From positions 3,674,024 through 3,738,023 of the forward strand of contig NC_019689.1 of the NCBI RefSeq assembly GCF_000317025.1: DNA of 64,000 bases, in the 5' to 3' direction. Origin of the DNA: Pleurocapsa sp. PCC 7327 (GTDB lineage: Bacteria > Cyanobacteriota > Cyanobacteriia > Cyanobacteriales > Microcystaceae). How positions within the stretch are numbered: the first letter of the stretch is position 1; every line of letters starts with the position of its first letter. Under the pieces are notes generated by a model that was given only the letters and a program-made list of their open reading frames with translations, did no database searches and was not told the DNA's origin. Position numbers and translations under genes: made by a program. Below, piece by piece: positions 34,219 to 54,072 of this stretch.

Positions 34219-34314
34219 TTTTTATACCTCTTATTCGATTTTGGATTGGTCGTACGGGCAGGTCGATCTAAATACGATAGAGATTTATTGACAACTCTCC
34301 CTCTACTTCCGACT

Positions 34315-36528: not shown

Positions 36529-36530
36529 AA

Positions 36531-37967: not shown

Positions 37968-38005
37968 AAGATTGCGAATTGTCAATTGTTAATTGCGAAT
38001 TGGTA

Positions 38006-39103: not shown

Positions 39104-39196
39104 AATATAACTCCCTTGTAGATGAGAAAATCGGGAAGTATTTTTCGAGGGACTCTTGGCTGGTGAGACTGTTTCGGTGAAAGCGACGCACTTTAA

Positions 39197-39484: not shown

Positions 39485-39525
39485 GGTTAACTCGCCTCCA
39501 TACAGTTAAACGCTCGTGCTAATGA

Positions 39526-39762
39526 CTATTTCGATTCCCACTTGGTATGCTGATACTCGCTACGATCGCCTTTTGGTAATTGCATCGATCCATAATCATC
39601 GAATGATGGCATCGGTAACATCGGCGGCATTGACGGCATCGGCGGCATTGAATCCGCTTTCCAGGGATCGGGGTAATAATGCTCTCCCTCATAACCTCCT
39701 GCGATCGATTCCAACTCTTCCTTTTTAAGTTCGATATCCTTGAATTTGTGTTCTTCAGACAT
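39526..39762 (-). CDS. Double-glycine leader peptide precursor, Pro/Met-rich core
   Basis: The 78-residue product has an acidic leader ending LKKEELESIAGG, then a core YEGEHYYPDPWKAD continuing into a Met-Pro-rich stretch (MPPMPSMPPMLPMP) and a hydrophilic end. The start ATG at 39762 has a good ribosome binding site (AGGAG seven bases upstream). It is the first gene of the export operon, so the C39 transporter probably cleaves after Gly-Gly. No modification enzyme is nearby. The Met/Pro repeat is unlike the other precursors of the window. Confidence 0.75.
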   Translation of the reverse strand: MSEEHKFKDIELKKEELESIAGGYEGEHYYPDPWKADSMPPMPSMPPMLPMPSFDDYGSMQLPKGDRSEYQHTKWESK

Positions 39763-39830
39763 TGTTAGTCTCCTGTTAGATTTGTTGTTTGCACTAAAAG
39801 TCAAGCTTTTGTATTTTTGTTGATAGTCTT

Positions 39831-39896
39831 ATCGTAGAGATTCAACTAAAAATAAACATCCGATCGATGTCACGAACTTACCCCTGACAAATGTCA
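39831..39896 (-). promoter_or_regulatory. Peptide-regulon promoter A: paired TGACA-N2-TGTCA boxes
   Basis: Two boxes, 39885-39896 (TGACAAATGTCA on plus) and 39861-39872 (CGATCGATGTCA, weaker), start 24 bases apart. The -10-like hexamer TACGAT on minus (39836-39831) begins 36 bases after the proximal box's first base. The same layout occurs at four other promoters. It would drive the Pro/Met precursor and the whole export operon. Confidence 0.6.
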
Positions 39897-40077
39897 TGGT
39901 TTTTATTGATAGCGAGATAGGTAATTTTCTCTGACTTTCGTTGAGTGCGATCGCGAAAGTTATACCGAGTTACAATCAAAGAGATAGGATAGTGCGAGCG
40001 TCTCGCTGGCGGCTCATGATGTCTGTACCACACTACAGCAAAATTACATTTACGAACAAACTTGGTATCATTCTCAG

Positions 40078-40207
40078 AGGATGTCTGAAAAGAATGTTTT
40101 GTCATTCTGAGTGAAGCGGAGCGGAACGAAGAATCTAGCTTATAAAGATACCAGCACTAGCTAATCGCTTCACCCTTGCGTAACATTTTTGACTTCTCAG
40201 ACATCCT
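40078..40207. repeat. MITE-like element with 11-bp terminal inverted repeats
   Basis: AGGATGTCTGA at 40078-40088 and TCAGACATCCT at 40197-40207 are perfect inverted repeats. The interior has no coding capacity. A diverged left half of the same sequence lies near 8297-8355. No clear target-site duplication was identified. Confidence 0.55.
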
Positions 40208-40465
40208 ATCAATTTTTTAGCACTAATTACTTTTGCTCGTTGAGCTGGCGAACTGCTCGAATTGTTACCTGTTTTTGTTCCAGATTAGAAACAGAAAAAG
40301 TATAATTTTTTGTGGCTAATATTTTATAAAAAATTTACTTAAACTTAAAAAAGATATTTACCTATCTGAAAGATTGTGAGTTGAAACATTGGTGCGATCG
40401 CTCGCCGAATTGGGTAAAAAAAACTGTGTTTTGAAAAAGAAAACGACAAAAAATCCAATTTATTC

Positions 40466-40552
40466 TAACCAAGAAATGAATTTCCTGGCTCAAAATTTAA
40501 GTCCGTCTTATAGGACTTAAGGTATTAGACAGAGAATTTATTCTCTGGCTTT
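40466..40552 (-). repeat. 87-base palindrome-rich module, copy 1 (inverted)
   Basis: This is the reverse complement of the module at about 42119-42205. Each copy contains three palindromes in a row: an AAGAAATGAATTTC type, TTAAGTCC...GGACTTAA, and AGAGAATTTATTCTCT. The two copies point in opposite directions and bracket a segment carrying two precursor genes and a small membrane protein. Confidence 0.7.
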
Positions 40553-40790
40553 CTATTCCTAGATTAATTCTAAGAGTTTTTAGGGAGTGCGAAAGATCCT
40601 TCGCTATCACTCAGGATGCTTAGCATCTCGATCGCTTTTAAGGAATTCGCGAGCAAGATGCTCGCACTACTCACTATAGATAATTCTTCTATCTTTCATT
40701 GACTGCTTAAGTCTTATTGGATTATTCAATATTTATATAACTGTCCAGTGAGATCGCAATCCCTTTTCTAAGAACAACCGCTTTTTCAGT

Positions 40791-41036
40791 CTATTTAGAA
40801 GAATTAATTTGCCACATTTTTTCTAAAATTTCTCTCTGATGATGTAAAGTATTAGGATAGCGTTGGACGCGAAATTTTTGAGACAAAAAAAATCCTAAAA
40901 CTAGGCAAAGCGGCACTAGGAGGAAACTTGTTACTCCTAAGAAAAATTGAGGTTTACTTTGACAGATTTGATTTGAATAATTCTGCTGGGTAGCGATATA
41001 TTCTGGATGCTTGAAAGAAGTGAAGTTGAGCGGCAT
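40791..41036 (-). CDS. Small single-helix membrane protein, possible immunity protein
   Basis: This 81-residue protein has one strong hydrophobic helix (about 32-54: FLGVTSFLLVPLCLVLGFFL) between hydrophilic ends. GAGGAAATT precedes the ATG. It lies about 100 bases downstream of a precursor gene on the same strand, so it is probably in that operon. Small membrane proteins next to bacteriocin precursors often give self-immunity; here that is only an inference from position. No family was recognised. Confidence 0.55.
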   Translation of the reverse strand: MPLNFTSFKHPEYIATQQNYSNQICQSKPQFFLGVTSFLLVPLCLVLGFFLSQKFRVQRYPNTLHHQREILEKMWQINSSK

Positions 41037-41134
41037 AATTTCCTCGTTGCGATCGAAACTTTTAACTAAAAACTCTTAAGAAAACAGTCGAGCCGAGCTG
41101 CTCAACTGCTACACCAAGCTGCAATTTTATCGAC

Positions 41135-41422
41135 TTAACGTTTTTTGTTTAAGTCTAAACCTCCAATTTTAGGGATGTCATCTGCCGATCCAAGTCCCAA
41201 GCCAATAAATTGGAAAGCACCAGTGATTATGTGCAAAGACTTGAAAACAAATGATGATGAACTACCTTCAGGAGTCACAGTGGTTTGCCGAGCGATCGAC
41301 GTGGCACTTTCCTCATAAAAAGAGCTAGAAAAAAATATATCTGCACCACCTGCTACAGCATCTAATTCTTCCTCGGATAATTCTTCAGCTTCACCACCCA
41401 TGGGAGCGATTTCGTCTGACAT
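41135..41422 (-). CDS. Double-glycine leader peptide precursor, long hydrophobic core
   Basis: The 95-residue product has leader MSDEIAPMGGEAEELSEEELDAVAGG and a core that is Ser/Thr-rich at first (ADIFFSSSFYEES) and hydrophobic later (HIITGAFQFIGLGLGSADD), ending in basic NKKR. The ATG at 41422 follows AAGGAGGAAATT, an excellent ribosome site; an upstream ATG at 41461 is unlikely. It is the second gene of the operon read from promoter B. Confidence 0.7.
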   Translation of the reverse strand: MSDEIAPMGGEAEELSEEELDAVAGGADIFFSSSFYEESATSIARQTTVTPEGSSSSFVFKSLHIITGAFQFIGLGLGSADDIPKIGGLDLNKKR

Positions 41423-41458
41423 AATTTCCTCCTTAATTTGTAGGATTTCAAGTTTGGT

Positions 41459-41506
41459 CAAGCAGAGGTTAATCCCTCTTAGATTTCAGAAGAAAACCTC
41501 TGCTTG
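41459..41506. repeat. Intergenic hairpin H5 between precursors
   Basis: A perfect 12-bp stem CAAGCAGAGGTT / AACCTCTGCTTG with a loop of about 24 bases lies between the two precursor genes of promoter B. It belongs to a family of at least five hairpins bordering the precursors (see 41841, 42377, 42759, 43145). Confidence 0.7.
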
Positions 41507-41530
41507 AGGTTGAGGTTAGATGGGTATTAT

Positions 41531-41797
41531 CTAGCCAGCGCCGTTGATGAACTCAGTAATCTGATCGGCATCGGTTTTCACCGCATCAGCAACGACTAGA
41601 GATTGAGCTTCACTGCCATTGCGATTGGAAGAGACCTTCTGAGCAGCGACTAGCTGATTTTGAGCGAAGTCGGTAGAACCTTTCTGGAACAGTGCTTGAG
41701 GTCTTCCTCCGAGAATGAATACACCGCCTGCGACAGCATCCAATTCTTGCTCAGACATCTCTACAGAGGCATTGATTTTGTTGGTTGGTTCTGTCAT
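41531..41797 (-). CDS. CTB-like double-glycine precursor, copy 1
   Basis: The 88-residue product has leader MTEPTNKINASVEMSEQELDAVAGG and a core with ALFQKGSTDFAQNQLVAAQKVSS and ending DQITEFINGAG. It is clearly homologous to the two 89-residue copies at 42451 and 42838 but more diverged. It resembles the cyanobacterial CTB-family bacteriocins. AGGAG stands six bases before the ATG. First gene after promoter B, ahead of the longer precursor. Confidence 0.78.
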   Translation of the reverse strand: MTEPTNKINASVEMSEQELDAVAGGVFILGGRPQALFQKGSTDFAQNQLVAAQKVSSNRNGSEAQSLVVADAVKTDADQITEFINGAG

Positions 41798-41840
41798 GAT
41801 TTACTCCTAAATTGGTTAAGTAATGTGTTTTAGTTTGAGC

Positions 41841-41891
41841 AAGCAGAGGTTTCTCTCCTGCAAGATTGATTGGTTTGGGGAACTTCTGCTT
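41841..41891. repeat. Intergenic hairpin H4 in the leader of precursor copy 1
   Basis: An 11-bp stem AAGCAGAGGTT / AACTTCTGCTT, with one G-T wobble, lies between promoter B and the precursor start. It is in the 5' untranslated region and belongs to the same family as the other precursor hairpins. Confidence 0.65.
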
Positions 41892-41913
41892 CGTTCCTTT
41901 TGGAACTATATTC

Positions 41914-41979
41914 ATCGTAGAAATTCAATCAAGAATCAACATCTGATAAATGTCACGAGCTTACCCCTGACAAATGTCA
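41914..41979 (-). promoter_or_regulatory. Peptide-regulon promoter B
   Basis: Boxes TGACAAATGTCA (41968-41979) and TGATAAATGTCA (41944-41955) start 24 bases apart. TACGAT on minus (41919-41914) begins 36 bases after the proximal box. The sequence between and around the boxes also matches promoters A and C (TACCCC in the spacer; TTGAAT...TACGAT near the -10). Confidence 0.65.
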
Positions 41980-42118
41980 CGGCTCCTATTGATAACAAAA
42001 TAAGTATTTCCTCCGATCCGGAATCCGAGCGATCGCTTTGCAATGGAATCTGTTTTTTATAGTTCGGAATAGCAAACTCATTTGCTATAAATGATTGATA
42101 GAACTTTTAAAAACCGAG

Positions 42119-42205
42119 AAAGCCAGAAAATAAATTCTCTGTCTAATACCTTAAGTCCTATAAGACGGACTTAAATTTTGAGCCAAGAAATGAATTTCTT
42201 GGTTA
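42119..42205 (+). repeat. 87-base palindrome-rich module, copy 2
   Basis: This copy is in the opposite orientation to the one at 40466-40552 and nearly identical along its length. It contains CCAAGAAAT-GA-ATTTCTTGG and TTAAGTCC-N8-GGACTTAA hairpins. Confidence 0.7.
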
Positions 42206-42376
42206 ACTGCAATCAGAACGAAATAACCCTGTCTTAGATGAATGAAACACGAATAGGGATTGAGCTAGGCTCACTCCCTACAGATTGCCGTATTCTACTC
42301 ATCTGAGAATTGTTGTAAGATCGATGCAAGCGATGCAAGCATTGATGCTTGCCTGGTTAAGTATTTTCAGTCTGGA

Positions 42377-42425
42377 CAAGCAGAGGTCGATCGCTCACAA
42401 TATTGATGAGCAAGACCTCTGCTTG
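42377..42425. repeat. Hairpin H3 downstream of precursor copy 2
   Basis: A perfect 12-bp stem CAAGCAGAGGTC / GACCTCTGCTTG lies 26 bases after the stop of the 42451-42720 gene. No T tract follows, so it may be a processing or stability element rather than a classical terminator. Confidence 0.7.
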
Positions 42426-42450
42426 GGGCGTCAGGTTAGAGCGGTATTAT

Positions 42451-42720
42451 TTAGCCAGCGCCGTTGATGAACTTGGCGATCTGGTCGGCATCGGTTTTAA
42501 CCGCATCAGCAGCGACCAGAGAGATGGTGTCGCTACCATCGCGATTGGAAGAGACTTTCTGAGCAGCTTGTAGCTGGTTTTGAGCGAAGTCAGTAGACCC
42601 ATCTTGAAACAGAGCTTGAGGTCCATTTCCGCCTAAAACGACGGTACCGCCTGCAACAGCATCTAATTCTTGTTCGGAAAGTTCCATCGAGGCATTGATT
42701 TTGTTACTTGGTTCTGTCAT
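42451..42720 (-). CDS. CTB-like double-glycine precursor, copy 2
   Basis: The 89-residue precursor has leader MTEPSNKINASMELSEQELDAVAGG and a core with GGNGPQALFQDGSTDFAQ. It is almost identical to the gene at 42838, differing mainly in the last residues (IAKFINGAG here, ITKFINGVS there). The offset between the two is 387 bases, including the hairpin spacer. AGGAG precedes the ATG. Probably co-transcribed with copy 3 from promoter C. Confidence 0.8.
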   Translation of the reverse strand: MTEPSNKINASMELSEQELDAVAGGTVVLGGNGPQALFQDGSTDFAQNQLQAAQKVSSNRDGSDTISLVAADAVKTDADQIAKFINGAG

Positions 42721-42758
42721 GATTTACTCCTAAGTTTGTAAAGTATTTTCAGTCTGGA

Positions 42759-42812
42759 CAAGCAGAGGTCGATCGCTCACAATATTGATACTGAGGGGAC
42801 AACCTCTGCTTG
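42759..42812. repeat. Hairpin H2 between precursor copies 2 and 3
   Basis: An 11-bp stem CAAGCAGAGGT / ACCTCTGCTTG lies in the spacer between the tandem copies. It is very similar to H3, indicating that the repeated unit was copied together with its spacer. Confidence 0.7.
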
Positions 42813-42837
42813 GAGCGTCAGGTTAGAGCGGTATTAT

Positions 42838-43107
42838 TTAGCTAACGCCGTTGATGAACTTGGTAATCTGGTCGGCATCGGTTTTAACCGCATCAGCAGC
42901 GACCAGAGAGATGGTGTCGCTACCGTCGCGATTGGAAGAGACTTTCTGAGCAGCTTGTAGCTGGTTTTGAGCGAAGTCAGTAGACCCATCTTGAAACAGA
43001 GCTTGAGGTCCATTTCCGCCTAAAACGACGGTACCGCCTGCAACAGCATCTAATTCTTGTTCGGAAAGTTCCATCGAGGCATTGATTTTGTTACTTGGTT
43101 CTGTCAT
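42838..43107 (-). CDS. CTB-like double-glycine precursor, copy 3
   Basis: This 89-residue precursor has the same leader and core as copy 2. It is the first gene after promoter C. The core is rich in Gln/Asn/Ser/Asp and lacks Cys, so no lanthionine or disulfide is expected. The near-identical tandem pair indicates a recent duplication or continuing gene conversion. Similar cores are known in cyanobacteria as CTB bacteriocins, without a demonstrated activity that I can cite. Confidence 0.8.
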   Translation of the reverse strand: MTEPSNKINASMELSEQELDAVAGGTVVLGGNGPQALFQDGSTDFAQNQLQAAQKVSSNRDGSDTISLVAADAVKTDADQITKFINGVS

Positions 43108-43144
43108 GATTTACTCCTAAGTTTGTAAAGTTTTTGGTTTGCTC

Positions 43145-43195
43145 AAGCAGAAGTTTCTCGAATACAAAATTGATTTGTTTTGGGAACTTCTGCTT
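43145..43195. repeat. Hairpin H1 in the 5' leader of precursor copy 3
   Basis: A perfect 11-bp stem AAGCAGAAGTT / AACTTCTGCTT with a loop of about 29 bases lies between promoter C and the precursor start. Confidence 0.7.
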
Positions 43196-43218
43196 CGTTT
43201 CTTTTTGAAACTATATTC

Positions 43219-43284
43219 ATAGTAAAAATTCAACCAAGGACGAACATCTGATAAATGTCATGAGCCTACCCCTGATAAATGTCA
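43219..43284 (-). promoter_or_regulatory. Peptide-regulon promoter C
   Basis: Boxes TGATAAATGTCA at 43273-43284 and 43249-43260 start 24 bases apart. TACTAT on minus (43224-43219) begins 36 bases after the proximal box. The region also lies upstream of the divergent binding-protein gene at 43367. Confidence 0.65.
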
Positions 43285-43366
43285 TGGTTGCTAACGATCG
43301 CCAGATAGATAATTTTCTGTGACTTGCGTCAAGTGCGATCGCGTCATTTTAAAAGTCTATTAACTT

Positions 43367-44278
43367 ATGTTCTTTCAATCTCTTGCCAACGTTATTGACG
43401 ATCTCGCTTATCAGCAGTCGATCTCCCGTCGTCTTTTTCTTGTGCAAATGCTATTGTTAACTGCTTGTGGAGCCAAAACAACGCAGACTCAAATAGAGGA
43501 ATTAGTCATTGGCGTTATTAGCTACGAGCAGGGAAAACAAATACTCAATCGCTTCGATCGCTTCAATCGCTATTTAGGCGAAAAAATGAGAGCGCGGATC
43601 GAGATAGAACCCGCTTTCAATGAAACTTTAGCTCTCGATCGCATCGAGGCAAGGGATTGGTCGTTAGTTTTTGCTCCTCCAGGCGTAGCTGCAAGCGCGA
43701 TCGCTTATCACCAATACACTCCTCTTTTCCCGCTACAAGACGATAGGAATTTACGCTCTATTTTCGTCGTTCGCCAAGATAACCCCGTCCGAGACTTGAA
43801 AGCGCTCAATGGCCAAACCATCGTCTTAGGCAAACAGGGTTCGGCAACGGGATATTATTTCCCTCTCTACAACCTTTATGGCTTGACGCTGGCTGAAATT
43901 ATGTTTGCTCCCACGCCCAAAACAGTTCTTGAATGGGTGGCTCAAGGGAAAGCGACTGCTGGGGCAATTTCCGAGCAGGAATTCAATCTTTACAGTTCGC
44001 AGTTGGATTCTGTCCAATTGCGCGTGCTGTTTACCGATCCTCGCAATGTTCCGTCTGGTTCGGTTTTGATTGCACCTACAATAGAACGCAACCGCGAAGG
44101 CTACATCCGCCAAGTTATGAGCGATGCTCCCACTGCTTTAGCTCAAGAAGTGGGATATTTAGCCGATCGCTCGCTACCGGATTACCAATATATGATTTCT
44201 GTAGTCAAGCGGGTAAGAGCGATCGCTACTCACGTTCGCGAAAAGCCCGCTCGTTTAATAGCAAGCGAACCATCTTGA
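43367..44278 (+). CDS. PhnD-like periplasmic binding lipoprotein
   Basis: This 303-residue protein has a twin-Arg-free signal with lipobox-like LLTACGAK near residue 31. It is followed by a phosphonate-type binding fold: VIGVISYEQGKQ, WSLVFAPPGVAA, GQTIVLGKQGSATGYYFP and GAISEQEFNLY. Proteins of this group serve ABC importers or act as ligand sensors for membrane kinases. No phosphonate permease or ATPase is adjacent, so a sensory partner for the nearby histidine kinases is plausible. It is the only plus-strand gene of the block. Confidence 0.75.
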   Translation: MFFQSLANVIDDLAYQQSISRRLFLVQMLLLTACGAKTTQTQIEELVIGVISYEQGKQILNRFDRFNRYLGEKMRARIEIEPAFNETLALDRIEARDWSLVFAPPGVAASAIAYHQYTPLFPLQDDRNLRSIFVVRQDNPVRDLKALNGQTIVLGKQGSATGYYFPLYNLYGLTLAEIMFAPTPKTVLEWVAQGKATAGAISEQEFNLYSSQLDSVQLRVLFTDPRNVPSGSVLIAPTIERNREGYIRQVMSDAPTALAQEVGYLADRSLPDYQYMISVVKRVRAIATHVREKPARLIASEPS

Positions 44279-44281
44279 CAT

Positions 44282-45052
44282 TTAACCGACAACATGTTTT
44301 GCAATCGCCTTGATTTCTCGTGACCAGAAATGGTCTGGATAGCGCAAGCAGAAGATGTCGCTGCTCCCCAGATGAAACATCTCTTCGCAAACGGGCAGGA
44401 TGCCAGCGACTTTTGTATTGTAGGTCTTCTGCATTTCTTGCCGCAAAGCTCCAAAATCCAAAGCTGGCAATGCTTTATTGACCACCAGCAGCATTTTGGG
44501 AACCTCTAACTTGCGGGCAACATCTACAGCCACAGCAGTTCCTTGATAGTCCTGGCGATCCGGACGCAGGATGACGACTAAAACATTAGAAATGATAATT
44601 GACAGCAGAGTTTCTTCGTTAATCCCAGGGTGAGTGTCAATTAATAAATAGTCTAGCTTCAAACGGCACATCAGGTCTTGCAAGCCATCATTAAGCCGAC
44701 GAGCGTCGTATCCTTCGCGCAAAATTCGAGAAATTTCGCCAGTTTTGATGCTAGAAGGAATCAAATAAATACTGCCCTTTCTGCCAAAAAGCGGTTGCTT
44801 GACTTTCAGATTGGGGGTAACGTCATAAGCAGCTTGCTCGACAGCACAACGCCCCCATAAATAATCATTGAGAGTATAATTAATTTTTTCTTCTTCGAGA
44901 CCGAAAAGGACGTGGATTCCAGGCGATTGGATGTCGGTATCAACAATGCCAACCCGCCGCCCAGATCCAGCGATGATAGTTGCAATGTTGGCGGTGACAT
45001 TTGATTTGCCAGTTCCACCACGGAACGAATGGACGGACACGACTTTAGACAT
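44282..45052 (-). CDS. ParA/MinD-family ATPase
   Basis: The 256-residue protein has a deviant Walker A FRGGTGKSN (Arg11, Lys16), Walker A' DTDIQSPG (Asp38) and a switch region LLIDTHPGIN. In ParA proteins the ATPase positions cargo or forms dynamic gradients. No parB or centromere site is seen. It lies 88 bases after the DUF3365 protein gene and may localise the export or sensing machinery. The family usually has Lys in the first position of the KGGxGK motif; here it is Arg. Confidence 0.8.
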   Translation of the reverse strand: MSKVVSVHSFRGGTGKSNVTANIATIIAGSGRRVGIVDTDIQSPGIHVLFGLEEEKINYTLNDYLWGRCAVEQAAYDVTPNLKVKQPLFGRKGSIYLIPSSIKTGEISRILREGYDARRLNDGLQDLMCRLKLDYLLIDTHPGINEETLLSIIISNVLVVILRPDRQDYQGTAVAVDVARKLEVPKMLLVVNKALPALDFGALRQEMQKTYNTKVAGILPVCEEMFHLGSSDIFCLRYPDHFWSREIKAIAKHVVG

Positions 45053-45140
45053 AGTGCATTTCCATAATAATTAGTAATTTGCAATCTTTAGTTGTAGTTG
45101 TCAGTTATCGATCGTGCTACTAACCACGAACCACTAACCA

Positions 45141-46211
45141 TTACTCCTTTTCATCAGAGTCTTTCCATTTACCTCTAATATCTTTTGCCTCTTGCTGTAA
45201 CCTTTGGAAGTAGGTATTGTCTGCGATCTCGTTTACCTGATGCCTTATTTTGGTTTGGTCGATCTCGATGCGAAGTGCCTGCACCTGTTGTCTTAGGCGT
45301 TGCTCGCGATCGCGGACTTCATGAGCCATTCGTTGGAAGACTCGTCCCAACTGTCCTAGCTCGTCCGAGCGCTTGGCGATCGCCGTTAACTTTTTAAGCT
45401 CGATCTCTCGCTCCCCTTCGGCATCTGCTGTATCGTTACCAAGCTGTTGAGCTAGCCGAGCCATTGGTTTGATAGGCTGGATTACATTCTTCTTGAGCAA
45501 AAAATTAATAAGCAAAATGACTGCGGTAAAAATCGCAATAAAAATTGCGATGACTAAAGAAAAAGTAAGACGAGTATTTTCAAAAACTTGACTAGCTGGA
45601 ACATAAATAATTTGGCTACCAATAATTTCATCAAGCTTCCACCCAAAACCATTTTCTGTTCCGTAGGTTTCTAATTGGCTCTTGGGAGCAACCTCTGGAG
45701 TGCTATGGCAGCGAAGACAGCTTTGTTGTTTGATGGCAAAAGGGCGAGCGCTATAATAAAGTCTCTCTGCCAATAAATTTCGATAACCCGATAGAGTTTG
45801 TAACTCTGGGTTAGCGCGAAATTGCTCGATAATACTAATTTCAAATTCGTCAGCTTTATCGCGCAAATTTGTCGGGTTAAGTGTGGCATCTTTGTAAAAG
45901 TAATTTTTATCTTCTTTGTTGTTGCGAAATTTTTCAAAGATCTCTCTAGCAGCAAAGCTTGGTATTGCTTCAGGAATGAATTCTGGTTGAGTTTCCAGGC
46001 TAGGCGTTAAAAGGGGATTAATATGGGTATTGGTATAATCCCTAATCGAGTTCACCATTTCCATGAGAACCTGTGCCCTATAATCTATTTCATCTTTAGC
46101 TCTGTGTTCGAGAGCCTCTGACAACGCTATTCCACTGACTGAGATCCCGCCTAAGAGAACCAGCAATAGAAATAAAGTAAATTTAGTGGCAAGCTTGAGA
46201 TTCTTAAACAT
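45141..46211 (-). CDS. DUF3365 (Tll0287-like) c-heme sensor with HAMP domain
   Basis: This 356-residue protein has an N-terminal membrane helix (about 8-30). A periplasmic DUF3365/Tll0287-like domain follows with a CLRCH heme motif near residue 165, then a second helix (about 213-238), a HAMP linker and a coiled-coil tail. It has no kinase or cyclase output. It resembles the sensor half of the larger kinase at 46968. It could pass redox or ligand information to a partner kinase. It probably shares a transcript with the His/Asp precursor 178 bases upstream. Confidence 0.78.
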   Translation of the reverse strand: MFKNLKLATKFTLFLLLVLLGGISVSGIALSEALEHRAKDEIDYRAQVLMEMVNSIRDYTNTHINPLLTPSLETQPEFIPEAIPSFAAREIFEKFRNNKEDKNYFYKDATLNPTNLRDKADEFEISIIEQFRANPELQTLSGYRNLLAERLYYSARPFAIKQQSCLRCHSTPEVAPKSQLETYGTENGFGWKLDEIIGSQIIYVPASQVFENTRLTFSLVIAIFIAIFTAVILLINFLLKKNVIQPIKPMARLAQQLGNDTADAEGEREIELKKLTAIAKRSDELGQLGRVFQRMAHEVRDREQRLRQQVQALRIEIDQTKIRHQVNEIADNTYFQRLQQEAKDIRGKWKDSDEKE

Positions 46212-46311
46212 AGATTTTTCGGTTTCTATAAGCTCAATTCAAACCTCTCAAAGCAGACTTGCATCAAAACTTGGCACTGCGCTCAATGTTCGAGCATCTT
46301 TCAGGGAATAA

Positions 46312-46339
46312 CAAGCGCAGTAGAGATCTCCTGCGCTTG
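46312..46339. repeat. Hairpin H6 after the His/Asp-rich precursor
   Basis: A 9-bp stem CAAGCGCAG / CTGCGCTTG with a 10-base loop lies 51 bases after the precursor stop. It starts with the same CAAGC word as the other precursor hairpins and occupies the same kind of position. Confidence 0.55.
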
Positions 46340-46389
46340 CTGCGATCGCTATTTGGTTACCTAACTATAAGAGTTACCACCAGCTAGGA

Positions 46390-46623
46390 TTACCAGCGAC
46401 AACCAGGGTACCACCAACTAGGTTTACGGGGTTTGCAATAAGGTTTACGGGGTTTGGGGTAGCAACCTCCGCCTTTATAGTCATCGTCGCCATGATAGTC
46501 GTCGCCATAATAGTCATCGTCATGGCGATGGTCTTCTTCGTAGTTGTGACATCCGCCTCCTCCTGCAACAGAATCTAATTCCTCAAGATTTAACTCTGAC
46601 ATCGCTTTAGTGTTCTCAATCAT
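46390..46623 (-). CDS. Double-glycine precursor with His/Asp/Tyr and Cys/Pro-rich core
   Basis: The 77-residue product has leader MIENTKAMSELNLEELDSVAGG. The first half of the core is acidic and His/Tyr-rich (CHNYEEDHRHDDDYYGDDYH); the second half is basic and Pro/Trp-rich with two KPRKP units. Four Cys are present. AAGGAG precedes the ATG at 46623. Such a charge-split core could bind metal or be cross-linked; neither is shown. It is followed by the DUF3365 sensor and ParA genes and has its own promoter D. Confidence 0.75.
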   Translation of the reverse strand: MIENTKAMSELNLEELDSVAGGGGCHNYEEDHRHDDDYYGDDYHGDDDYKGGGCYPKPRKPYCKPRKPSWWYPGCRW

Positions 46624-46967
46624 AAAAAGTTCTCCTTGGTTTGATTGTTTGTTTCTCTAAGTTATCCGCAGAGAATTTCTATCGACATCGAATAAATGTC
46701 ATGTTCGGATCGTTACATTTGTCATGGCTGGGAGCGAGATCTTTTTCTGATGCTTGCTACTGTTTCAATTTCTATGCTGGAGGAAGCATCAACGCCTAGA
46801 ACTTTAGTTCTAGGCTCAAAGCTCAACTCGATTAAAATCGACTGAAATTTCTATCGGGTCTTCTAAAGAAAACTTTTTCGATCGGACAGGAATTAATTAC
46901 AAGAGCGTTTGTTGAGAATAGTGCAAAATCTGAAACAAGACGGTCTTTAGCCTCTTAAACAGAGAAT
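46624..46967. other. Intergenic region with promoter D and hairpins
   Basis: About 340 bases containing promoter D (46661-46724), a perfect GCCTAGAACT-TT-AGTTCTAGGC hairpin (about 46794-46815) and, at the right edge, an AGAGAATTTATTCTCT palindrome shared with the 87-base modules. No gene was seen. Confidence 0.55.
46661..46724 (-). promoter_or_regulatory. Peptide-regulon promoter D
   Basis: Boxes TTACATTTGTCA (46713-46724) and GAATAAATGTCA (46690-46701) start 23 bases apart. GATAAC on minus (46666-46661) begins 35 bases after the proximal box. This layout and its sequence match promoter E more closely than A-C. Confidence 0.6.
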
Positions 46968-49436
46968 TTATTCTCTAGCTACTTGTTGGGTTAAGGCGAT
47001 GATTTCTTCAAAACAGAAGTTATTAACTAAATAGGTTAGGGTATTGGCTAAATAATCGTTGGGCTGAGGAAGTTGTTCGACGAGCATGAGAATCTGCTTG
47101 GCATTAACTTTGAGGGCAGCTTGATGCAATTGTTTCACCCACTGTTGCGGCATCGCAGCGAGAGCCTCTCTCAGCTCGTCTGGTTGAAGCCGCGACAGTT
47201 GGGACAAATCTGGCAAGTTCTCTACCACCCCGCTACGCCATTGGGGAAAACTATAGAGGTAGCGCACTCCCAAGTGCTCGGCTATCTTTTCAAAGATGAC
47301 CTCGACTCGAAAAGGTTTGCGTACAAAGTCGTCACAGCCTGCCGACAGAGCCGCGATGCGGTCTTCTTCAAACGCGCTTCCGGTTAAGGCAATAATGATG
47401 GGGGCTTTCTCGCCTGCGGCTTTAATCTGTTTGGTCGCTTCCAACCCGTCCATTTCTGGCATTCGTAAATCCATCCAGATTAAGTGAGGCGACCAGTTTT
47501 GCCAGAGCGCGATCGCTTCTCGCCCATTAATTGCCTCCCGCACCTCAAAGCCGACTGGGATAAGCAACCCCACCAGTAACTGACGATTTTCTGGCTTATC
47601 TTCTACAACCAGAATGCGATAAGAAGGCTGTCCGGCTTCTAAACCTATAACCTGCCGTGTGGATTCTTCTTGATAGCTTCGTAACTCGTCCGCTTGAACT
47701 GGGCTGGTTTGGATGTCAAACTGAAAAATCGTACCTTCTCCCAAGCGACTCTCGACGGTAAGGTCTCCACCCATTAGGCGCACGTATTCTCGGCTAATAG
47801 GTAAGCCGAGTCCAGTTCCTTGCTGAGAGTTCCGACCAGCCTCAGCTTGGACAAAAGGTTCAAAGAGACTCTCAAGTTCTTCAGCGGCAATACCAGAACC
47901 AGTATCCTCTACTTCAAAATGAATTGTCATCAGTCCTTCGTCTTTCGTACCAATGACCAATGACCGATGACCGATGACTGATGACGCTCTTAGCCTCACG
48001 CTTCCAGCTTGCGTAAACTTCATCGCATTGCCTAATAGGTTTAGGAGAACCTGGCGCAGCTTGCTTTCATCAGTACGGATATAACGGGGCAGGTTGGGGG
48101 ACAAGTCAAAGCTAAGCTCTAGTCCCTTGGATTCGGCTTTTAACCGAAACATTTGTTGCAGCCAGTTTAGTAAACCATAGAGGTCGAAATTGTTTTCATT
48201 GAGCGCAACCTTGCCTGCCTCAATTTTGGCGATTTCTAGCACATCATTAATCAATCCCAGTAAATGTTCGCCACTACGGTCGATGGTGTCCAAGTATTCC
48301 TGCTGTTTTGGAGTGAGCAAGCTATTGCGAGCCATCAATTGGGTAAAGCCGAGGATGACGTTGAGAGGGGTGCGCAATTCGTGGCTCATGTTGGAGAGAA
48401 ATCGACTTTTAGCCTTGTTTGCCTCTTCTGCTCTAGCTCTGGCTTGTTCCGCTTCTTCCATAATTTTAGCCAGTTGGGCGGTACGCCGTTTTACCATCCG
48501 AGTCAGGTTTAGCTCGCGGGCAGCAACTTCGCGTGCCATGTGCTGGAAAGCACGGGTAAGCTGTCCTGGTTCGTCAGATCGTCGAGCCAGTTGGGCAATG
48601 CTAGGAGTGTCAAATACTCCCAATTGTTCGGTCGTCATGTTTCCGGTGCTGACTTTATGGGCAGTTGCCGTCAGTTGGTTGATGGGATGAATGACTGTGC
48701 GCTTGAGCAACCAGTTGAGCAGCAGCACTACCACCGCAAAGATGACGCAAAAAACGCCCATCGCTAAGGTTAAATATTGGCGACCGCGAGCCGACACCTC
48801 ATTGGCTGGGACGTAAATCGTTTGAGCTGCAACCACTTCATTGAGCTTCCAGCCAAACCCCCCTTGGGTCCCATAGGTAGCGATCATGTTCTTGGGGGCT
48901 GCTGAAACACTGCCGTGACATTTCAGACAACTTGCCTGCGCGATCTTTAACGGACGGGCGATGAAAAACAGGGTTCCTTCTGACTTGGCTGCGTATGCCT
49001 TGGCTCGATAGCCAGAGAGCTGGGTGAGTTTGGGTTGCATGCGAAATCGTTCTACTAGCTTGCTTTCAAACTCATCTGCCCGATCGCGTAAATTGGTAGG
49101 ATTGAGCGCGGCTTCTTTATAGAAGAAGCTTTTGTATTCGGGGCGATCGCGAAATTGCTCGAAGACTTCCCGCGCGGCAAAGGCGGGTACGGTTTCGGGA
49201 ATAAACTCCGGCTCGGTTGCTAGCCGATTTTCTAGGAGCGGTTCGATATTATTGCTCGTATAGTTCCTGACAGAGTTCATCGCCTGCATCAGGATTTCTG
49301 CTTTGGTGGTGATGTCCTTCTCAACTTCGTGCTGGATTGCCTTCGATAGGGTAACGCCGCTCAATAGGATGCCACCCAGAAAAACTAGCGTTAGTAATAG
49401 GGTAAATTTAGTGCCAAGCTTTAGTTTTCCAAGCAT
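46968..49436 (-). CDS. Hybrid histidine kinase with DUF3365 c-heme sensor
   Basis: The 822-residue protein has a membrane helix, a periplasmic DUF3365 domain with CLKCH near residue 170, a second helix (about 226-250) and HAMP. The HisKA domain has SHELRTP with the phospho-His near 352, followed by HATPase (ESKLRQVLLNLLGNAMKF, DTGSGIA, GTGLGLPIS). A receiver domain has the Asp in IWMDLRMPEMDG near 655, and an HPt-like C-terminal region follows. A short stretch of the ATPase domain is encoded by a dispersed tandem repeat (about 47924-47992). The heme sensor suggests redox or gas sensing. Confidence 0.88.
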   Translation of the reverse strand: MLGKLKLGTKFTLLLTLVFLGGILLSGVTLSKAIQHEVEKDITTKAEILMQAMNSVRNYTSNNIEPLLENRLATEPEFIPETVPAFAAREVFEQFRDRPEYKSFFYKEAALNPTNLRDRADEFESKLVERFRMQPKLTQLSGYRAKAYAAKSEGTLFFIARPLKIAQASCLKCHGSVSAAPKNMIATYGTQGGFGWKLNEVVAAQTIYVPANEVSARGRQYLTLAMGVFCVIFAVVVLLLNWLLKRTVIHPINQLTATAHKVSTGNMTTEQLGVFDTPSIAQLARRSDEPGQLTRAFQHMAREVAARELNLTRMVKRRTAQLAKIMEEAEQARARAEEANKAKSRFLSNMSHELRTPLNVILGFTQLMARNSLLTPKQQEYLDTIDRSGEHLLGLINDVLEIAKIEAGKVALNENNFDLYGLLNWLQQMFRLKAESKGLELSFDLSPNLPRYIRTDESKLRQVLLNLLGNAMKFTQAGSVRLRASSVIGHRSLVIGTKDEGLMTIHFEVEDTGSGIAAEELESLFEPFVQAEAGRNSQQGTGLGLPISREYVRLMGGDLTVESRLGEGTIFQFDIQTSPVQADELRSYQEESTRQVIGLEAGQPSYRILVVEDKPENRQLLVGLLIPVGFEVREAINGREAIALWQNWSPHLIWMDLRMPEMDGLEATKQIKAAGEKAPIIIALTGSAFEEDRIAALSAGCDDFVRKPFRVEVIFEKIAEHLGVRYLYSFPQWRSGVVENLPDLSQLSRLQPDELREALAAMPQQWVKQLHQAALKVNAKQILMLVEQLPQPNDYLANTLTYLVNNFCFEEIIALTQQVARE

Positions 49437-49606
49437 AAAAACCTCCCAGGAAAACCACGTACTTCAGTCGTGGGAGGAAATTGAAATGTTTTGTCTGCCA
49501 TTTAATTTTATTTATGTTTGATTTCTCTTCGCCATGCAGAAAAAATAGCCCGTTATATTTTTTGGCGCGATCGCACTTTCGATCCTAATTTGAAAAAAAA
49601 CTTTTC

Positions 49607-52600
49607 TTACTGTTGTCGAGTTAAAGCGATAATTTCTTCAAAACAGAAGTTATTAACCAGATGGGTTAAAGCATTGGCCAAAGGTGCATTTAGCTCGGCA
49701 ATTTGCTCGATCGCTTTGAGAATTTGTTTGGCATTCACTCTAATAGCAGCTTGATGCAATTGTTCTACCCACTGTTGCGGCATCGCAGCGAGAGCCTTTT
49801 TCATCTCTTCTGATTGAAGCCGTGAGGGTTGCGACAAATCTGGCGATTTCTCGGCACCGATGTTAGACAATTGTGGCGAACCATAGAGGTAGCGCACTCC
49901 CAAGTGTTCTGCCATCTTGTTAAAGATGACCTCGGTTTGAAATGGCTTGCGTACAAAGTCGTTAAAACCTATCGATAGAGCCGCGAAGCGATCTTCTTCA
50001 AACGCGCTTGCAGTTAAAGCAATAATGATGGGGACTTTCTCGCCTGCGGCTTTAATCTGTTTAGTTGCCTCGTAGCCGTCCATTTCTGGCATTCGTAAAT
50101 CCATCCAGATTAAGTGGGGCGACCAGTTTTGCCAGAGCGCGATCGCTTCTCGCCCGTTAGCTGCCTCCCGCACCTCAAAGCCCACTGGGGCAAGCAATTC
50201 AGCCAGTAGCTGACGATTTTCCGGCTTGTCTTCTGCAATCAGGATGCGGTAAGAAGGCTGTCCGGCTTCCAAACCTATGACCTGCTGACTAGGTTCTTGA
50301 CTGCTCTGTAACTCGTCCGCTTGAACTGGGCTGGTTTGGATGCCAAACTGAAAAATCGTGCCTTCTCCTAAACGACTCTCAACGGTAAGATCTCCTCCCA
50401 TCAGGCGGACAAATCTTTGGCTAATAGGTAAGCCGAGTCCAGTTCCTTCTTGGGATCTGCGACCGACTTGAGTTTGGACAAAGGGTTCAAATAAGCTTTC
50501 GAGTTCTTCAGCAGCAATACCGGGACCGGTATCTTCTACTTCAAAGTGAATTGTCAAAAGTCCTTTGTCCTTTGTCCTTTGTTCTTCATCTTTCGTACCA
50601 ATGACCGATGACCGATGACCGATGACCGATGACGCTCCTAGCCTCACGCTTCCGGCTTGTGTAAACTTAATCGCATTGCCTAACAAGTTGACTAATACCT
50701 GGCGCAGCTTGCTTTCATCGGTGCGGATATATTGAGGTAAATCGCTTGCTATTTCAAAGATAAGTTGCAAACCTTTAGATTCAGCTTTTAGGCGTAACAT
50801 TTGTTGTAGCCAGTCTAGCAAGCTATAGAAATCGAAATCATTTTCATTGAGCGTAGTTCTGCCTGCCTCAATCTTAGAGATGGCCAGCACATCGTCGATT
50901 AATGCCAGTAGGTGTTCGCCACTGCGGTCGATCGTGTCTAGGTATCTCTGTTGCTTGCGATCGAGGGAGCCACTGCGAGCTAGCAATTGGGTAAAGCCCA
51001 GGATGGCGTTGAGGGGGGTGCGCAGTTCGTGACTCATGTTGGAGAGAAATTGACTTTTAGCGCGGTTGGCAACTTCAGCAGCTTCTACTGCCTTTTGCAG
51101 AGCTGCTTCTGCTCGTTTGCGATCGCTAATGTCAGAAATCACTCCTTCCAGGCAACCCTCTTCCCGGTTCAACCGGGCTGAAAATAGCCCCCAAAACTCA
51201 GAGCCATCATGCCTGCGAAAGCGTGCCTCAAAGTTATGAACTTCCCCATCAGTTAGGACTATTTCTAGTGCCCTCAATCGCTCGCTGGGATCGATGTAGT
51301 AGTCAATCGATCGCTTGCTCCCGATCTCATCGGCTACTGAGTTATGCCCCATCATGGTCAGGTAGCGTTGGTTGGCATCGAGAATCAGCCCATCCTCAAG
51401 GCGAGACCGAAAGATTCCAACCTGGGAATTCTCGAAGATATTCCGAAACTTGGCTTCGCTTCGCTGTAGGGCTTCCTCGGCTTTTTGGCGATCGCGGATT
51501 TCCTGCCGAAGCCACTCATTTTTCTCGCTCAGCTCCACTGTTCGTTGCTCGACTCGAACTTCTAATTCCTCATTGGTTCTGGCCAGTGCGGCAAAGGATT
51601 CCCGCAATTGCTGCGCCATTTGGTTGAAGGAGCGAGCGAGCACTTTGAGTTCCTTGGTGCCGCTTGCAGCAACGGTTTGGTTTAAGTCGCCACTGGCGAT
51701 CGCAACCGACGCTCTCTCCAACTGGAGAATCGGCTGCGCGAGCCAGCGAGAGGTGAAAAAACCCAACACGGTAGCCAGTCCAAAGGCTCCCAAGCACAGG
51801 AAGATGGTCGTGCGCGTGTTGGCATCGATTCGATCCATGAAGTCGGCTTCTGGGACGGCTATTACAATCAGCCAATCCAACCCCAAATTGTTTTTCATCG
51901 GCACGACTTGTAAAAATTGCCGCTCGCCGTCAATCTCAAAATCGAGTTGCTGTTTATTATTAATTCGAGTCAATCCGCCAAAGTGTTTCAGCAAATATTG
52001 AGTTGTGAGTCGAGTCAGAACATCGCTACTTTCAGTTGCCTTAATCCGTTTCGGAACCTGGTTTACTTGAGGAACCGTCGGATTTTCGATGATATACGGC
52101 TGTTGGATTCCCGAACTTCCCACCAGCAATCCCGTGCGACGTTCGAGGATAAACGTCTCGCCCGATCGTCCAATTTTCAAGCTGCGCAGGAATTGGCTAA
52201 TCCCTAATAACGAGCAATCAACGGCTGCCACGCCCAAAAGTTTGCCGCGTTCGTCGTAGATTGGCAAACTAGCATTCAATACGTATTTGGGCGTGGCAAA
52301 AAGTCTATAAATCTCGCCCCAGTTCGCCCTGCCTGCCTCGACTGCATGTTGATACCAAGGACGGGTACGGGGATCGTAACTGGGCTTGGATCTTAAAAGT
52401 TTGATGCGATTTCTATTTTTATCTACCGCATAAATTCGGATTTCCCCGCTTGTAGACTTGCCCGAAATTTTTACTTGCAAGGCATTATTCTCTAACCTTT
52501 CGACTGCAACATGTTCTCCCTCTAGCTCTGAGGCGAGATAAACTGCCGTCACCGATTCAAAGGCATGAAGCTGATACCAAAGATGTCGCTCTAAGTGCGA

Positions 52601-52885
52601 TAAATCTTGCAAATTCAATTCGCCGAGATGAATGGCATCTGCATTGAGTTGATTAATCTTATGGGGGGTTGCTAGATAGGTTTCAAGGTACTGCTGGATG
52701 CGAGCCGTAAGTTCGCTCCGAAGTTGGCTGGCGACCTCATTAACTGCCCTCTCCCCGTTTTGGAGCGATAGCCATCCCGTCAGCCCCACTGCTAAGGAGA
52801 TTTCCAGGATAAATGGCACCACGAAGATGAAACGCAGGGGCACGCTTTGAGTCAGTTGAGAAATCCGATGGGTTAGAGGACGCAT
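49607..52885 (-). CDS. Hybrid histidine kinase with Cache and PAS domains
   Basis: The 1092-residue protein is a paralogue of the kinase downstream. It has a first helix (about 18-40), a periplasmic dCache-type sensor (about 45-330), a second helix (about 352-375), HAMP, a coiled coil and PAS (FRNIFENSQVGIFRSRL, near 478). HisKA with SHELRTP (His near 618), HATPase and a receiver (Asp near 925) follow, then an HPt-like tail. From HisKA onward the two kinases are highly similar, while the sensors differ. The same dispersed repeat is inserted in the ATPase domain, longer here (about 50553-50634). Confidence 0.88.
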   Translation of the reverse strand: MRPLTHRISQLTQSVPLRFIFVVPFILEISLAVGLTGWLSLQNGERAVNEVASQLRSELTARIQQYLETYLATPHKINQLNADAIHLGELNLQDLSHLERHLWYQLHAFESVTAVYLASELEGEHVAVERLENNALQVKISGKSTSGEIRIYAVDKNRNRIKLLRSKPSYDPRTRPWYQHAVEAGRANWGEIYRLFATPKYVLNASLPIYDERGKLLGVAAVDCSLLGISQFLRSLKIGRSGETFILERRTGLLVGSSGIQQPYIIENPTVPQVNQVPKRIKATESSDVLTRLTTQYLLKHFGGLTRINNKQQLDFEIDGERQFLQVVPMKNNLGLDWLIVIAVPEADFMDRIDANTRTTIFLCLGAFGLATVLGFFTSRWLAQPILQLERASVAIASGDLNQTVAASGTKELKVLARSFNQMAQQLRESFAALARTNEELEVRVEQRTVELSEKNEWLRQEIRDRQKAEEALQRSEAKFRNIFENSQVGIFRSRLEDGLILDANQRYLTMMGHNSVADEIGSKRSIDYYIDPSERLRALEIVLTDGEVHNFEARFRRHDGSEFWGLFSARLNREEGCLEGVISDISDRKRAEAALQKAVEAAEVANRAKSQFLSNMSHELRTPLNAILGFTQLLARSGSLDRKQQRYLDTIDRSGEHLLALIDDVLAISKIEAGRTTLNENDFDFYSLLDWLQQMLRLKAESKGLQLIFEIASDLPQYIRTDESKLRQVLVNLLGNAIKFTQAGSVRLGASSVIGHRSSVIGTKDEEQRTKDKGLLTIHFEVEDTGPGIAAEELESLFEPFVQTQVGRRSQEGTGLGLPISQRFVRLMGGDLTVESRLGEGTIFQFGIQTSPVQADELQSSQEPSQQVIGLEAGQPSYRILIAEDKPENRQLLAELLAPVGFEVREAANGREAIALWQNWSPHLIWMDLRMPEMDGYEATKQIKAAGEKVPIIIALTASAFEEDRFAALSIGFNDFVRKPFQTEVIFNKMAEHLGVRYLYGSPQLSNIGAEKSPDLSQPSRLQSEEMKKALAAMPQQWVEQLHQAAIRVNAKQILKAIEQIAELNAPLANALTHLVNNFCFEEIIALTRQQ

Positions 52886-53108
52886 TCACTAAATACCTAA
52901 GTTGAATGGCATTGAGATAAGGCAGGAACGTATACCTAAAGCCTTGAAGAAAAAACTCCAAGTCCTCTAAAACAATTCGCTATTCGCATTACTCATACAG
53001 TTTAGTTGCTTTTTAAGAGAGCGATCGCGTCAATTAGGTTTTGTCAAATAACAATGATTTCTGGAACTCAGCAGCTAGGTTGGGACAGCAAACAAAAGAA
53101 ATCACAGT

Positions 53109-53387
53109 TTAATTTTGACAATAAAAATCTTGCAGGGCTTTAAAAGCTGCCCTTCTAGGAGGATATCCTTCTTGACGATAGCCCAGAATCAATTTGTATA
53201 ATCTCTCGTTTGCTCCCCAGAAACAGAAATCTCCTACCTCTTTGCGAATTGCTTCTAAAATCTCTACACACTCTTCAAAATCCAAACCAGTGCTTTTCTG
53301 CATCTGATAAGCTTTGGAGGAAATTTGTTTTACCCGATCGAAATAAACAACCATTAGATCTTCGGATTTTATATTTATATTTGTCAT
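53109..53387 (-). CDS. Small hypothetical protein next to the kinases
   Basis: This 92-residue, soluble, helical protein (ends RRAAFKALQDFYCQN) has two Tyr/Arg-rich helices. No family was recognised. It lies on the same strand as the kinases but 220 bases upstream, and its promoter region faces promoter E. Composition and a start at an ATG with normal codon use support a real gene. A role in the peptide regulon is possible from position only. Confidence 0.5.
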   Translation of the reverse strand: MTNINIKSEDLMVVYFDRVKQISSKAYQMQKSTGLDFEECVEILEAIRKEVGDFCFWGANERLYKLILGYRQEGYPPRRAAFKALQDFYCQN

Positions 53388-53853
53388 AATTAACGCGCCC
53401 CCGATGCATATCGATTCCCAGACTAATAATTCGTCGCTTGACCAATATCAAGATAGCTTCTCCACAATTTAAGCTTGAAACTAATTGAATCTAGTCTCAT
53501 TATTAAAATTTAAGAACAGACCAATCTCTAAAAAATGTCTCGAATTCTATCTCAGCAAAATAGATAACTTTGCGATCGCTTTCGTTGACTGACTAGAGGA
53601 TGTTGGCAAACTACAAGTTATTACTCCAAATTACCTTTTGCCTTTTTTGGAAGGATATTAGTTCTTGTCAAATTTCTTAATAAATCGATTTTCCCTTTAG
53701 CAACAGCTTTGTTCGATCGCGCGATCGCTATTTATCAACCCTGTCATGACAAGTGTAACGGTCTAGACATGACATTTATTCGATGCGAGCAAGACTTCCT
53801 TTTCGATAACTTAAGGCTATCGAACCCAAAGGGATGCGCTCGGAGGTCAAGCA
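53388..53853. other. Divergent intergenic region with promoter E
   Basis: About 470 bases between two small divergent genes. Apart from promoter E (53747-53810), the region contains GCGATCGC palindromes and no other recognised feature. Confidence 0.5.
53747..53810 (+). promoter_or_regulatory. Peptide-regulon promoter E upstream of an orphan small ORF
   Basis: Boxes TGACAAGTGTAA (53747-53758) and TGACATTTATTC (53770-53781) start 23 bases apart. GATAAC (53805-53810) begins 35 bases after the proximal box's first base. The sequence around the boxes and the following GATAACTTA match promoter D almost word for word, in opposite orientation. Confidence 0.6.
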
Positions 53854-54072
53854 ATGAAAGGTTATTGGAGAAATCTACTACTTAAAACCGCCGGCTGGCT
53901 GATTGCTGAAACCATCCTAAACCTGGTGGGATTGGATAACTTAGCGGATTACAGCGAATTTATCTTGGCTCGACACTCATCAGCCGAGGCAGCAGAAGCC
54001 TATAACGTAGCGATCGCCTTAGCTCTCCCCAATGAGTCGCATCTATTTTCTATTCTGCCATCTCATGAGTAA
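53854..54072 (+). CDS. Orphan 72-residue protein under a peptide-regulon-type promoter
   Basis: The product begins MKGYWRNLLLKTAGWLIAET and looks amphipathic in its first 40 residues; the second half is Ala/Glu-rich. GGAGG lies eight bases before the ATG. It has no Gly-Gly leader, so it is not a normal precursor of the set. The shared promoter suggests that it is expressed together with the secreted peptides, perhaps as an effector, immunity or accessory protein. No family was recognised. Confidence 0.55.
   Translation: MKGYWRNLLLKTAGWLIAETILNLVGLDNLADYSEFILARHSSAEAAEAYNVAIALALPNESHLFSILPSHE

Follow-up and report, generated by a model that had tools for sequence, protein, structure and literature searches.

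Five promoters (A–E) in a 64,000-nucleotide stretch of the genome of the cyanobacterium Pleurocapsa sp. PCC 7327 each carry two related boxes upstream of a -10 element, and across cyanobacterial genomes this promoter motif tends to be found where one clade of response regulators (RRs) of the NarL/FixJ family is present. The stretch, referred to here as the window, spans positions 3674024–3738023 of the single contig (C1) of this genome (G000; 4,986,817 bases). We consider it probable that the boxes are tandem sites of one such RR, which would read DNA in the manner of DesR, act at promoters with a TAnnnT hexamer, receive its input from hybrid histidine kinases and direct the output of exported or specialised products. 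The motif, its register to the -10 element and start (+1), its rarity, its tie to the RR clade and its linkage to kinases were all computed.

A preliminary description of this DNA had reported the five promoters and named an equally frequent occurrence by chance as grounds for dropping the claim. The two-box pattern (TGACANNTNTN{11,13}RTGACA) matches five times in the window, against a mean of 0.007 in 150 first-order Markov simulations, none of which reached five. The whole-genome search that the same description had proposed was run and gave eight matches in 4.99 Mb, with none in a reversed control. Besides A–E these are two sites that look like real promoters, F (C1:1108759) and G (C1:3340476), and a likely chance match (C1:2524536) that lacks the remaining motif; requiring GATG after the proximal box leaves exactly A–G, seven sites. 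The five paired-box promoters, all present at the coordinates first given, are therefore confirmed as a real observation. A profile search (described below) brings in two further sites, H at E 4.6e-9 and, on its proximal half alone, I at E 3.6e-5. Site I (L125:7126-7253; near C1:2709201) has a normal proximal box and -10, and its palindromic box CATGACAAAAATCATGG lies 80 bp upstream, not 23 or 24. Rfam, at gathering scores, gave no match to a known RNA element within the window.

On recounting (Table 1), the spacing of 24 bases between boxes and 36 to the -10 hexamer was the same as that first described for A–C. For D and E the value of 23/35 had to be corrected to 23/37, the conserved hexamer TAACTT lying two bases further downstream. 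Both boxes had been called near-palindromic; this is true of the distal box, a clean CATGACA-NN-TGTMATG, but not of the proximal box, RTGACATTTATNNGATG, which is not a clean palindrome. The proximal box, previously centred near -42, is now predicted near -43.5 and the distal box near -66.5 (counted from the conserved A in sites with 23/37 spacing), which places the proximal box just upstream of the -35 region in an activator-like position; no good -35 element was found, as before. The -10 hexamer has the form TAnnnT in all five promoters. A, B and C are alike outside the boxes too and may therefore have arisen by copying of a single promoter, in which case they do not count as three separate instances; what D, E, F and G have in common is mainly the motif.

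Table 1. Promoters, genes and regulator discussed in the text (window coordinates unless a contig is given)
Feature	Position	Strand	Details
Promoter A	39824..39898	-	distal box TGACATTTGTCA 39896-39885; proximal TGACATCGATCGGATG from 39872; -10 TACGAT 39836-39831; predicted +1 A 39824
Promoter B	41907..41981	-	distal box 41979-41968; proximal TGACATTTATCAGATG from 41955; -10 TACGAT 41919-41914; predicted +1 A 41907
Promoter C	43212..43286	-	distal box 43284-43273; proximal TGACATTTATCAGATG from 43260; -10 TACTAT 43224-43219; predicted +1 A 43212
Promoter D	46652..46726	-	distal box TGACAAATGTAA from 46724; proximal TGACATTTATTCGATG from 46701; -10 TAACTT 46664-46659; predicted +1 A 46652
Promoter E	53745..53819	+	distal box TGACAAGTGTAA from 53747; proximal TGACATTTATTCGATG from 53770; -10 TAACTT 53807-53812; predicted +1 A 53819
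Second ABC protein	31297-34218	-	exporter cluster; sub-cut-off cNMP match only
C39-peptidase ABC exporter, TIGR03796	34315-36549	-	exporter cluster
NHLM HlyD	36531-37985	-	exporter cluster
TIGR03896 cNMP protein	38006-39103	-	exporter cluster (31297..39103)
Mo-nitrogenase C-terminus-like protein (PF06967)	39197..39484	-	between A leader peptide and exporter genes
Gene behind A, 78-residue peptide	39526..39762	-	double-glycine-like leader (ELESIAGG) in translation; sub-threshold family matches only
Second gene behind B, CTB family bacteriocin	41135..41422	-	
Gene behind B, CTB family bacteriocin (NF038167)	41531..41797	-	
Second gene behind C, CTB family bacteriocin	42451..42720	-	near copy of first
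Gene behind C, CTB family bacteriocin	42838..43107	-	
Tll0287-like + HAMP protein, 356 residues	45141..46211	-	behind D peptide; no kinase domain; CLRCH at residue 165
Gene behind D, 77-residue peptide	46390..46623	-	double-glycine-like leader (ELDSVAGG); His/Asp/Tyr/Cys-rich core; sub-threshold NF038167 match
Hybrid histidine kinase, 822 residues	46968..49436	-	Tll0287-HAMP-HisKA-HATPase-REC; CLKCH at residue 170; between promoters D and E
Second hybrid histidine kinase	49607..52885	-	dCache, HAMP, PAS, HisKA, HATPase, REC
Gene behind E, 72-residue protein	53854..54072	+	relative (48% over 62 residues) also behind motif in G325
Candidate regulator, 228 residues, receiver-GerE	G000:C1:3383909-3384592		outside window; directly behind receiver-HisKA_3-HATPase kinase

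The motif was followed through 243 genomes of the order and 388 of the class, sets that overlap partly, with stricter filters in searches covering more than 40 genomes. An exact extended pattern occurs at 20 sites in 9 of the 243 order genomes, with one match altogether in the reversed control. TAnnnT follows in 20/20 of these sites and an A stands at +1 in 18/20, neither of which the search pattern demanded. A sequence-only profile made from the 20 sites (R1) matches 34 of the class genomes at E<=1e-4, three of which had contributed to it. The 69 R1 rows share the consensus CATGACA-NN-TGTMATG, ~9 bases, RTGACATTTATNNGATG, ~20 bases, TAnnnT, six bases and A. The row frequencies (T-12 68/68, A-11 67/68, T-7 66/67, +1 A 54/56) lean towards the profile, since R1 selected the rows. 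Likewise, the G (66/69) and ATG (69/69) of the proximal box are counted over rows of which 20 were found by requiring GATG and the rest by the profile built on them. With two repeated sites removed (69 to 67), the boxes are 23 bases apart in 51 of 63 measurable distinct sites, and in 64 of 66 the -10 follows the proximal box at a distance of 36 or 37.

This near-fixed register, together with boxes that overlap neither the -10 nor the start, argues against an RR that binds here but represses, or that uses one box while the other is a relic. The asymmetry of the proximal box and the distant palindrome of site I would fit such an arrangement. Against this, reported activating sites of NarL at napF (-40 to -49) and yeaR (-38 to -47), which are of the 7-2-7 type (paired inverted heptamers with a 2-base gap), are about as far from the start (PMC4549865), and we regard repression or single-box use as very unlikely. 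A fixed distance from distal box to -10 was also considered as a rule. The two spacings add up to 60 in all five window promoters; over all sites, however, the sum is 60 in 35, 59 in 20 and another value in 7, and the rule was rejected. One site (L250:1501-1594), ahead of a Nif11 leader peptide gene, has 36 bp between its boxes, 13 above the usual value.

Two of the first motif sites lie directly behind a two-gene system that consists of a receiver-HisKA_3 kinase and a NarL-family RR. The best match of this RR in Pleurocapsa sp. PCC 7327 (C1:3383909-3384583, 73%) combines a receiver (PF00072, 3.7e-27) with a GerE/LuxR-type domain (PF00196, 2.5e-21), the composition of the NarL/FixJ family. Pfam assigned a DNA-binding domain to the RR alone among the module proteins submitted to it. 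RR matches of at least 70% identity are present in 8 of the 243 order genomes, all of them among the nine with the exact motif; the closest RR of the ninth, G174, has 64%. In the class set, an R1 match (E<=1e-4) was found in 25 of the 26 genomes whose RR match reaches E<=1.2e-90 vs 9 of 362 others (Fisher 9e-31), or in 22 of 23 once the three genomes that contributed to R1 are left aside. The cut of 1.2e-90 was picked with the list in view; with the 1e-85 limit of the search itself the counts become 27/39 vs 7/349 (Fisher 6e-26). Both Fisher values ignore relatedness between genomes.

The motif-linked RRs have a recognition helix of the form G-T-V-R-N-H or close variants; relatives have Lys at the position of the Arg. 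A tree built after removal of 9 repeated RR rows joins 37 Arg-type rows from 34 distinct genomes in one clade (support 100/99). Together with G385 and G413, the Arg-type RR was seen in 36 genomes, of which 34 have an R1 match at E<=1e-4. The other two are G484 and G497, the latter with an R1 match 62 nt behind the RR that does not reach this limit at genome scale. Three of the nine apparent exceptions in the class set (G315, G385, G413) hold an Arg-type RR too, leaving six (G229, G565, G282, G365, G390, G447). The RR of G118, just under the 70% cut in the order genomes with 69% identity, is Lys-type. The motif tracks the RR clade through several families, and 17 other genomes of the family to which Pleurocapsa sp. 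PCC 7327 belongs have neither the exact motif nor an RR match at 1e-75.

The tie is also physical in half of the cases. In 18 of the 36 Arg-type genomes the motif begins -4 to 151 nt from the end of the RR match on the same strand; for the remaining 18, among them Pleurocapsa sp. PCC 7327, the coordinates place it elsewhere or none was found nearby. A box-like pattern (TGACANNTNT, or two TGACA 22–24 apart) is present within 350 nt downstream of 18/35 Arg-type but 0/60 Lys-type RR genes, a count from which 12 repeated RR rows were removed and in which some short contigs may not span the full 350 nt. No shared motif stood out downstream of Lys-type RRs in a simple count of 5-mers repeated 22–24 bases apart. 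Among named records, the R1 motif was found in 5 of 6 loci with an RR at >=69% identity, two of them from R1 genomes, vs 0 of 32 at <=62% (E<0.01). The sixth locus, L137, belongs to G518, whose motif sits on other contigs. As L137, L138 and L139 represent genomes G518, G428 and G504, and L135 and L136 represent G077 and G026, these loci were not counted as extra evidence. In two loci, L116 and L117 (G148, G197), a HetZ-related protein 2 gene stands on the far side of the motif from the regulator and is followed by genes of psaA/psaB type (family assignments come from L116). At L051/L133 (G015) the regulator/kinase pair and hybrid kinase adjoin genes that by eye are kaiC-, kaiB- and kaiA-like.

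The distal box consensus of the 69 rows equals the motif reported for Bacillus subtilis DesR, ATGACA-N2-TGTCAT (PMC11034029), and the GTVRN recognition helix is common to DesR and the motif-linked RRs. DesR is among the closest solved chains to the RR, with VraR, DevR and NarL, and is aligned there with GTVRNYIS. The preliminary description had assigned the boxes to a Crp/Fnr or PrfA-type regulator; given the tie of the motif to the RR clade and the identity of the distal box with the DesR motif, that assignment is therefore to be replaced by a DesR-like RR. A PrfA-like activator of the Crp/Fnr family in a class II arrangement would accommodate the likeness to the PrfA box quoted in that description, the position near -42 and the presence of cNMP-domain proteins within the cluster. 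However, the cNMP protein of the cluster, the only Crp/Fnr candidate examined in the genome, has two cNMP domains and no DNA-binding domain, and the motif follows the Arg-type NarL-family RR and matches the box of DesR. We give this alternative almost no credence.

The comparison with DesR and its relatives has its limits. DesK is, like the partner kinase here, of the HisKA_3 type, and DesR too binds upstream in tandem; DesK is also a membrane thermosensor. Here the partner kinase has an N-terminal receiver and a hybrid kinase is linked, unlike DesK; judged on Pfam domains, the partner (receiver-HisKA_3-HATPase, no further Pfam domain family) does not have the DesK architecture. A lipid desaturase gene, the kind of target that DesR controls, was not noticed among the downstream genes read, most of which were judged by eye; several sites have no clear gene. 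The best solved relative by sequence is VraR (5hev, E 5e-45), of the VraR/LiaR type, yet VraR has Lys in its recognition helix (TVKTHVS), and for pneumococcal VraR a different candidate motif, TMMRYCTRARGWYKGA, is given (PMC11034029). The same paper predicts for pneumococcal RR11 (TCS11) the motif ATGACATTTGTCAT-N7-AGTGACA, which repeats the palindrome of our distal box and has another TGACA 22 bp later, as at the beginning of our proximal box. RR11 has a kinase and targets unlike those described here, its own operon being the only specific target found in this streptococcal prediction (PMC11034029). NarL shares with the distal box the inverted heptamers two bases apart, but the heptamer sequence differs, as in the quoted engineered NarL site TACCCCTAAAGGGGTA (PMC4549865). 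CATGACA-NN-TGTMATG conforms to 7-2-7; the right half of the proximal box does not.

Several observations weigh against a DesR-like RR as the reader of the boxes. In Pleurocapsa sp. PCC 7327 the RR gene is separated from the window by ~289 kb, and no motif adjoins it. The motif is present at E<=1e-4 in seven genomes with no Arg-type RR seen, namely G174 and the six listed above. In G174 and G229 every RR match at 1e-40 or better is Lys-type (8/8 and 3/3); in the other five the RR search reached 1e-85 only. Five more order genomes have weak motif matches (E 3e-4 to 0.01) and no 70% RR, whereas G484 has the RR but weak partial sites only. One Arg-type RR (L168) falls outside the clade, and its locus has no motif. 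Compared over its full length, the RR is closer to VraR than to DesR; the RR11 motif has the standing of a prediction; and the proximal site departs from a clean 7-2-7 palindrome and has a GATG for which the model does not account. The seven genomes would also fit a scenario where the Arg-type RR is a mere neighbour or hitch-hiker and another, unlinked factor binds the boxes, and linkage and co-occurrence are correlations. Such a factor would nevertheless have to reproduce the tracking of the RR clade across several families, with neither partner in the 17 genomes of the same family, and the sharing of both the recognition-helix Arg and the reported motif with DesR, in a module where the RR alone, among the proteins run, has a DNA-binding domain. 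We think this scenario improbable and continue with the DesR-like RR as the candidate regulator.

From these patterns we infer RR binding, activation, an order of phosphotransfer and a signal. A phosphorylated RR dimer would occupy the distal 7-2-7 palindrome, centred near -66.5, and a second dimer would take the weaker proximal site near -43.5; together they would hold RNA polymerase on TAnnnT promoters that have no proper -35. Hybrid kinases, in this genome the heme-c Cache kinase of the window, probably feed phosphate or a signal into the pair of RR and kinase. The predicted output here consists of CTB bacteriocins and other leader peptides, and elsewhere of RTX-repeat proteins, a Nif11 leader peptide, DUF4278 proteins and others.

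A hybrid kinase lies near the RR/kinase pair in 10 of 12 loci compared, divergently in 8; it is absent beside the pair in Pleurocapsa sp. PCC 7327, and one of the 12 contigs is too short to tell. The hybrid kinase of Chroococcus sp. FPU101, a genome of which one locus was scanned, has nine matches in Pleurocapsa sp. PCC 7327 at 1e-60 or better. Only one runs end to end, and it falls in the window (46980-49436, 58%, E 2e-293); a second, confined to the core, is the adjoining window kinase. The window therefore likely holds the kinase of the system, with the RR ~289 kb away. Both this kinase and the 356-residue protein combine PF11845 with a CXXCH motif (Table 1), as do sCache_heme (DUF3365/Tll0287) sensors. 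A 2026 preprint (PMC12889525) describes such domains as c-heme Cache sensors with nitric oxide (NO)-sensor properties when fused to signalling modules, and a domain taken from a signalling protein is reported there to bind NO. In three loci a gene of the di-haem peroxidase family adjoins the kinase (Pfam run on one of the three). CXXCH is present in only 4 of 14 hybrid kinases compared, others carrying different sensors, so the input is not fixed and NO or redox as the signal is a guess. Tentatively, and with more doubt than confidence, we suggest that a periplasmic heme-c sensor kinase responding to NO or redox might drive the Arg-type DesR-like RR through a phosphorelay, releasing bacteriocin-like peptides, their exporter and other secreted products as a single chemical response to neighbours or nitrosative stress.

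All four matches to NF038167 over cut-off in the genome lie behind promoters B and C, the peptides behind A and D being below it. The near-identical tandem CTB genes behind C (42451-43107) and the similarity of promoters A, B and C probably reflect a recent duplication. The exporter genes at 31297-39103 match the NHLM families TIGR03796, TIGR03794 and TIGR03896 and, from gene order, are possibly read from promoter A. A promoter and terminator scan of 31000-47500 gave no excess of terminators over shuffles. Outside the window, site F precedes a 45-residue open reading frame and site G one with a GH3 domain. In other genomes the motif is followed by genes for DUF4278, RTX-repeat, Nif11 leader peptide, terpene synthase and HetZ-related protein 2 and by a relative of the gene behind E (identified by Pfam or NCBIfam for examples and by eye for the others), and at several sites no convincing gene was found downstream. 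DUF4278-like genes recur after the motif at L243, L252, L267, L279, L291, L299 and L305 (by Pfam at L291 and by eye at the others); gifB, which encodes the glutamine synthetase inactivating factor, belongs to this family (PMC11288750). Well-conserved motif sites at L120 and L121 (G174) and L130 (G229), where only Lys-type regulators were seen, have no convincing gene downstream and are perhaps relics. At L248 (G282) the motif site shares a short contig with a distant (38%) Lys-type RR. The peptide regulon of the preliminary description thus holds as a shared regulon that includes peptide genes, but is too narrow with respect to the GH3-type (G), DUF4278, RTX-repeat, terpene synthase and Nif11-leader genes; the regulon is best described as one of exported and specialised products rather than of peptides alone. 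In Nodularia, phosphate limitation was reported to induce CTB genes (PMC9846622).

No report of this regulon was found among the top entries listed in the open-licence literature searched, and a search for the box strings gave no cyanobacterial paper among the open-licence matches listed. For a set of bacteriocin-like peptides of cyanobacteria, our analysis puts forward a regulator, a DNA code and start sites, and regulator and promoter are paired likewise in 34 of the 36 genomes in which the Arg-type regulator was seen. It links an Arg/Lys difference in a recognition helix to the presence or absence of one promoter motif, and connects a heme-c sensor kinase with a specific group of output genes. 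These data suggest that a signalling system so far undescribed switches on bacteriocin-like peptides together with other exported products.

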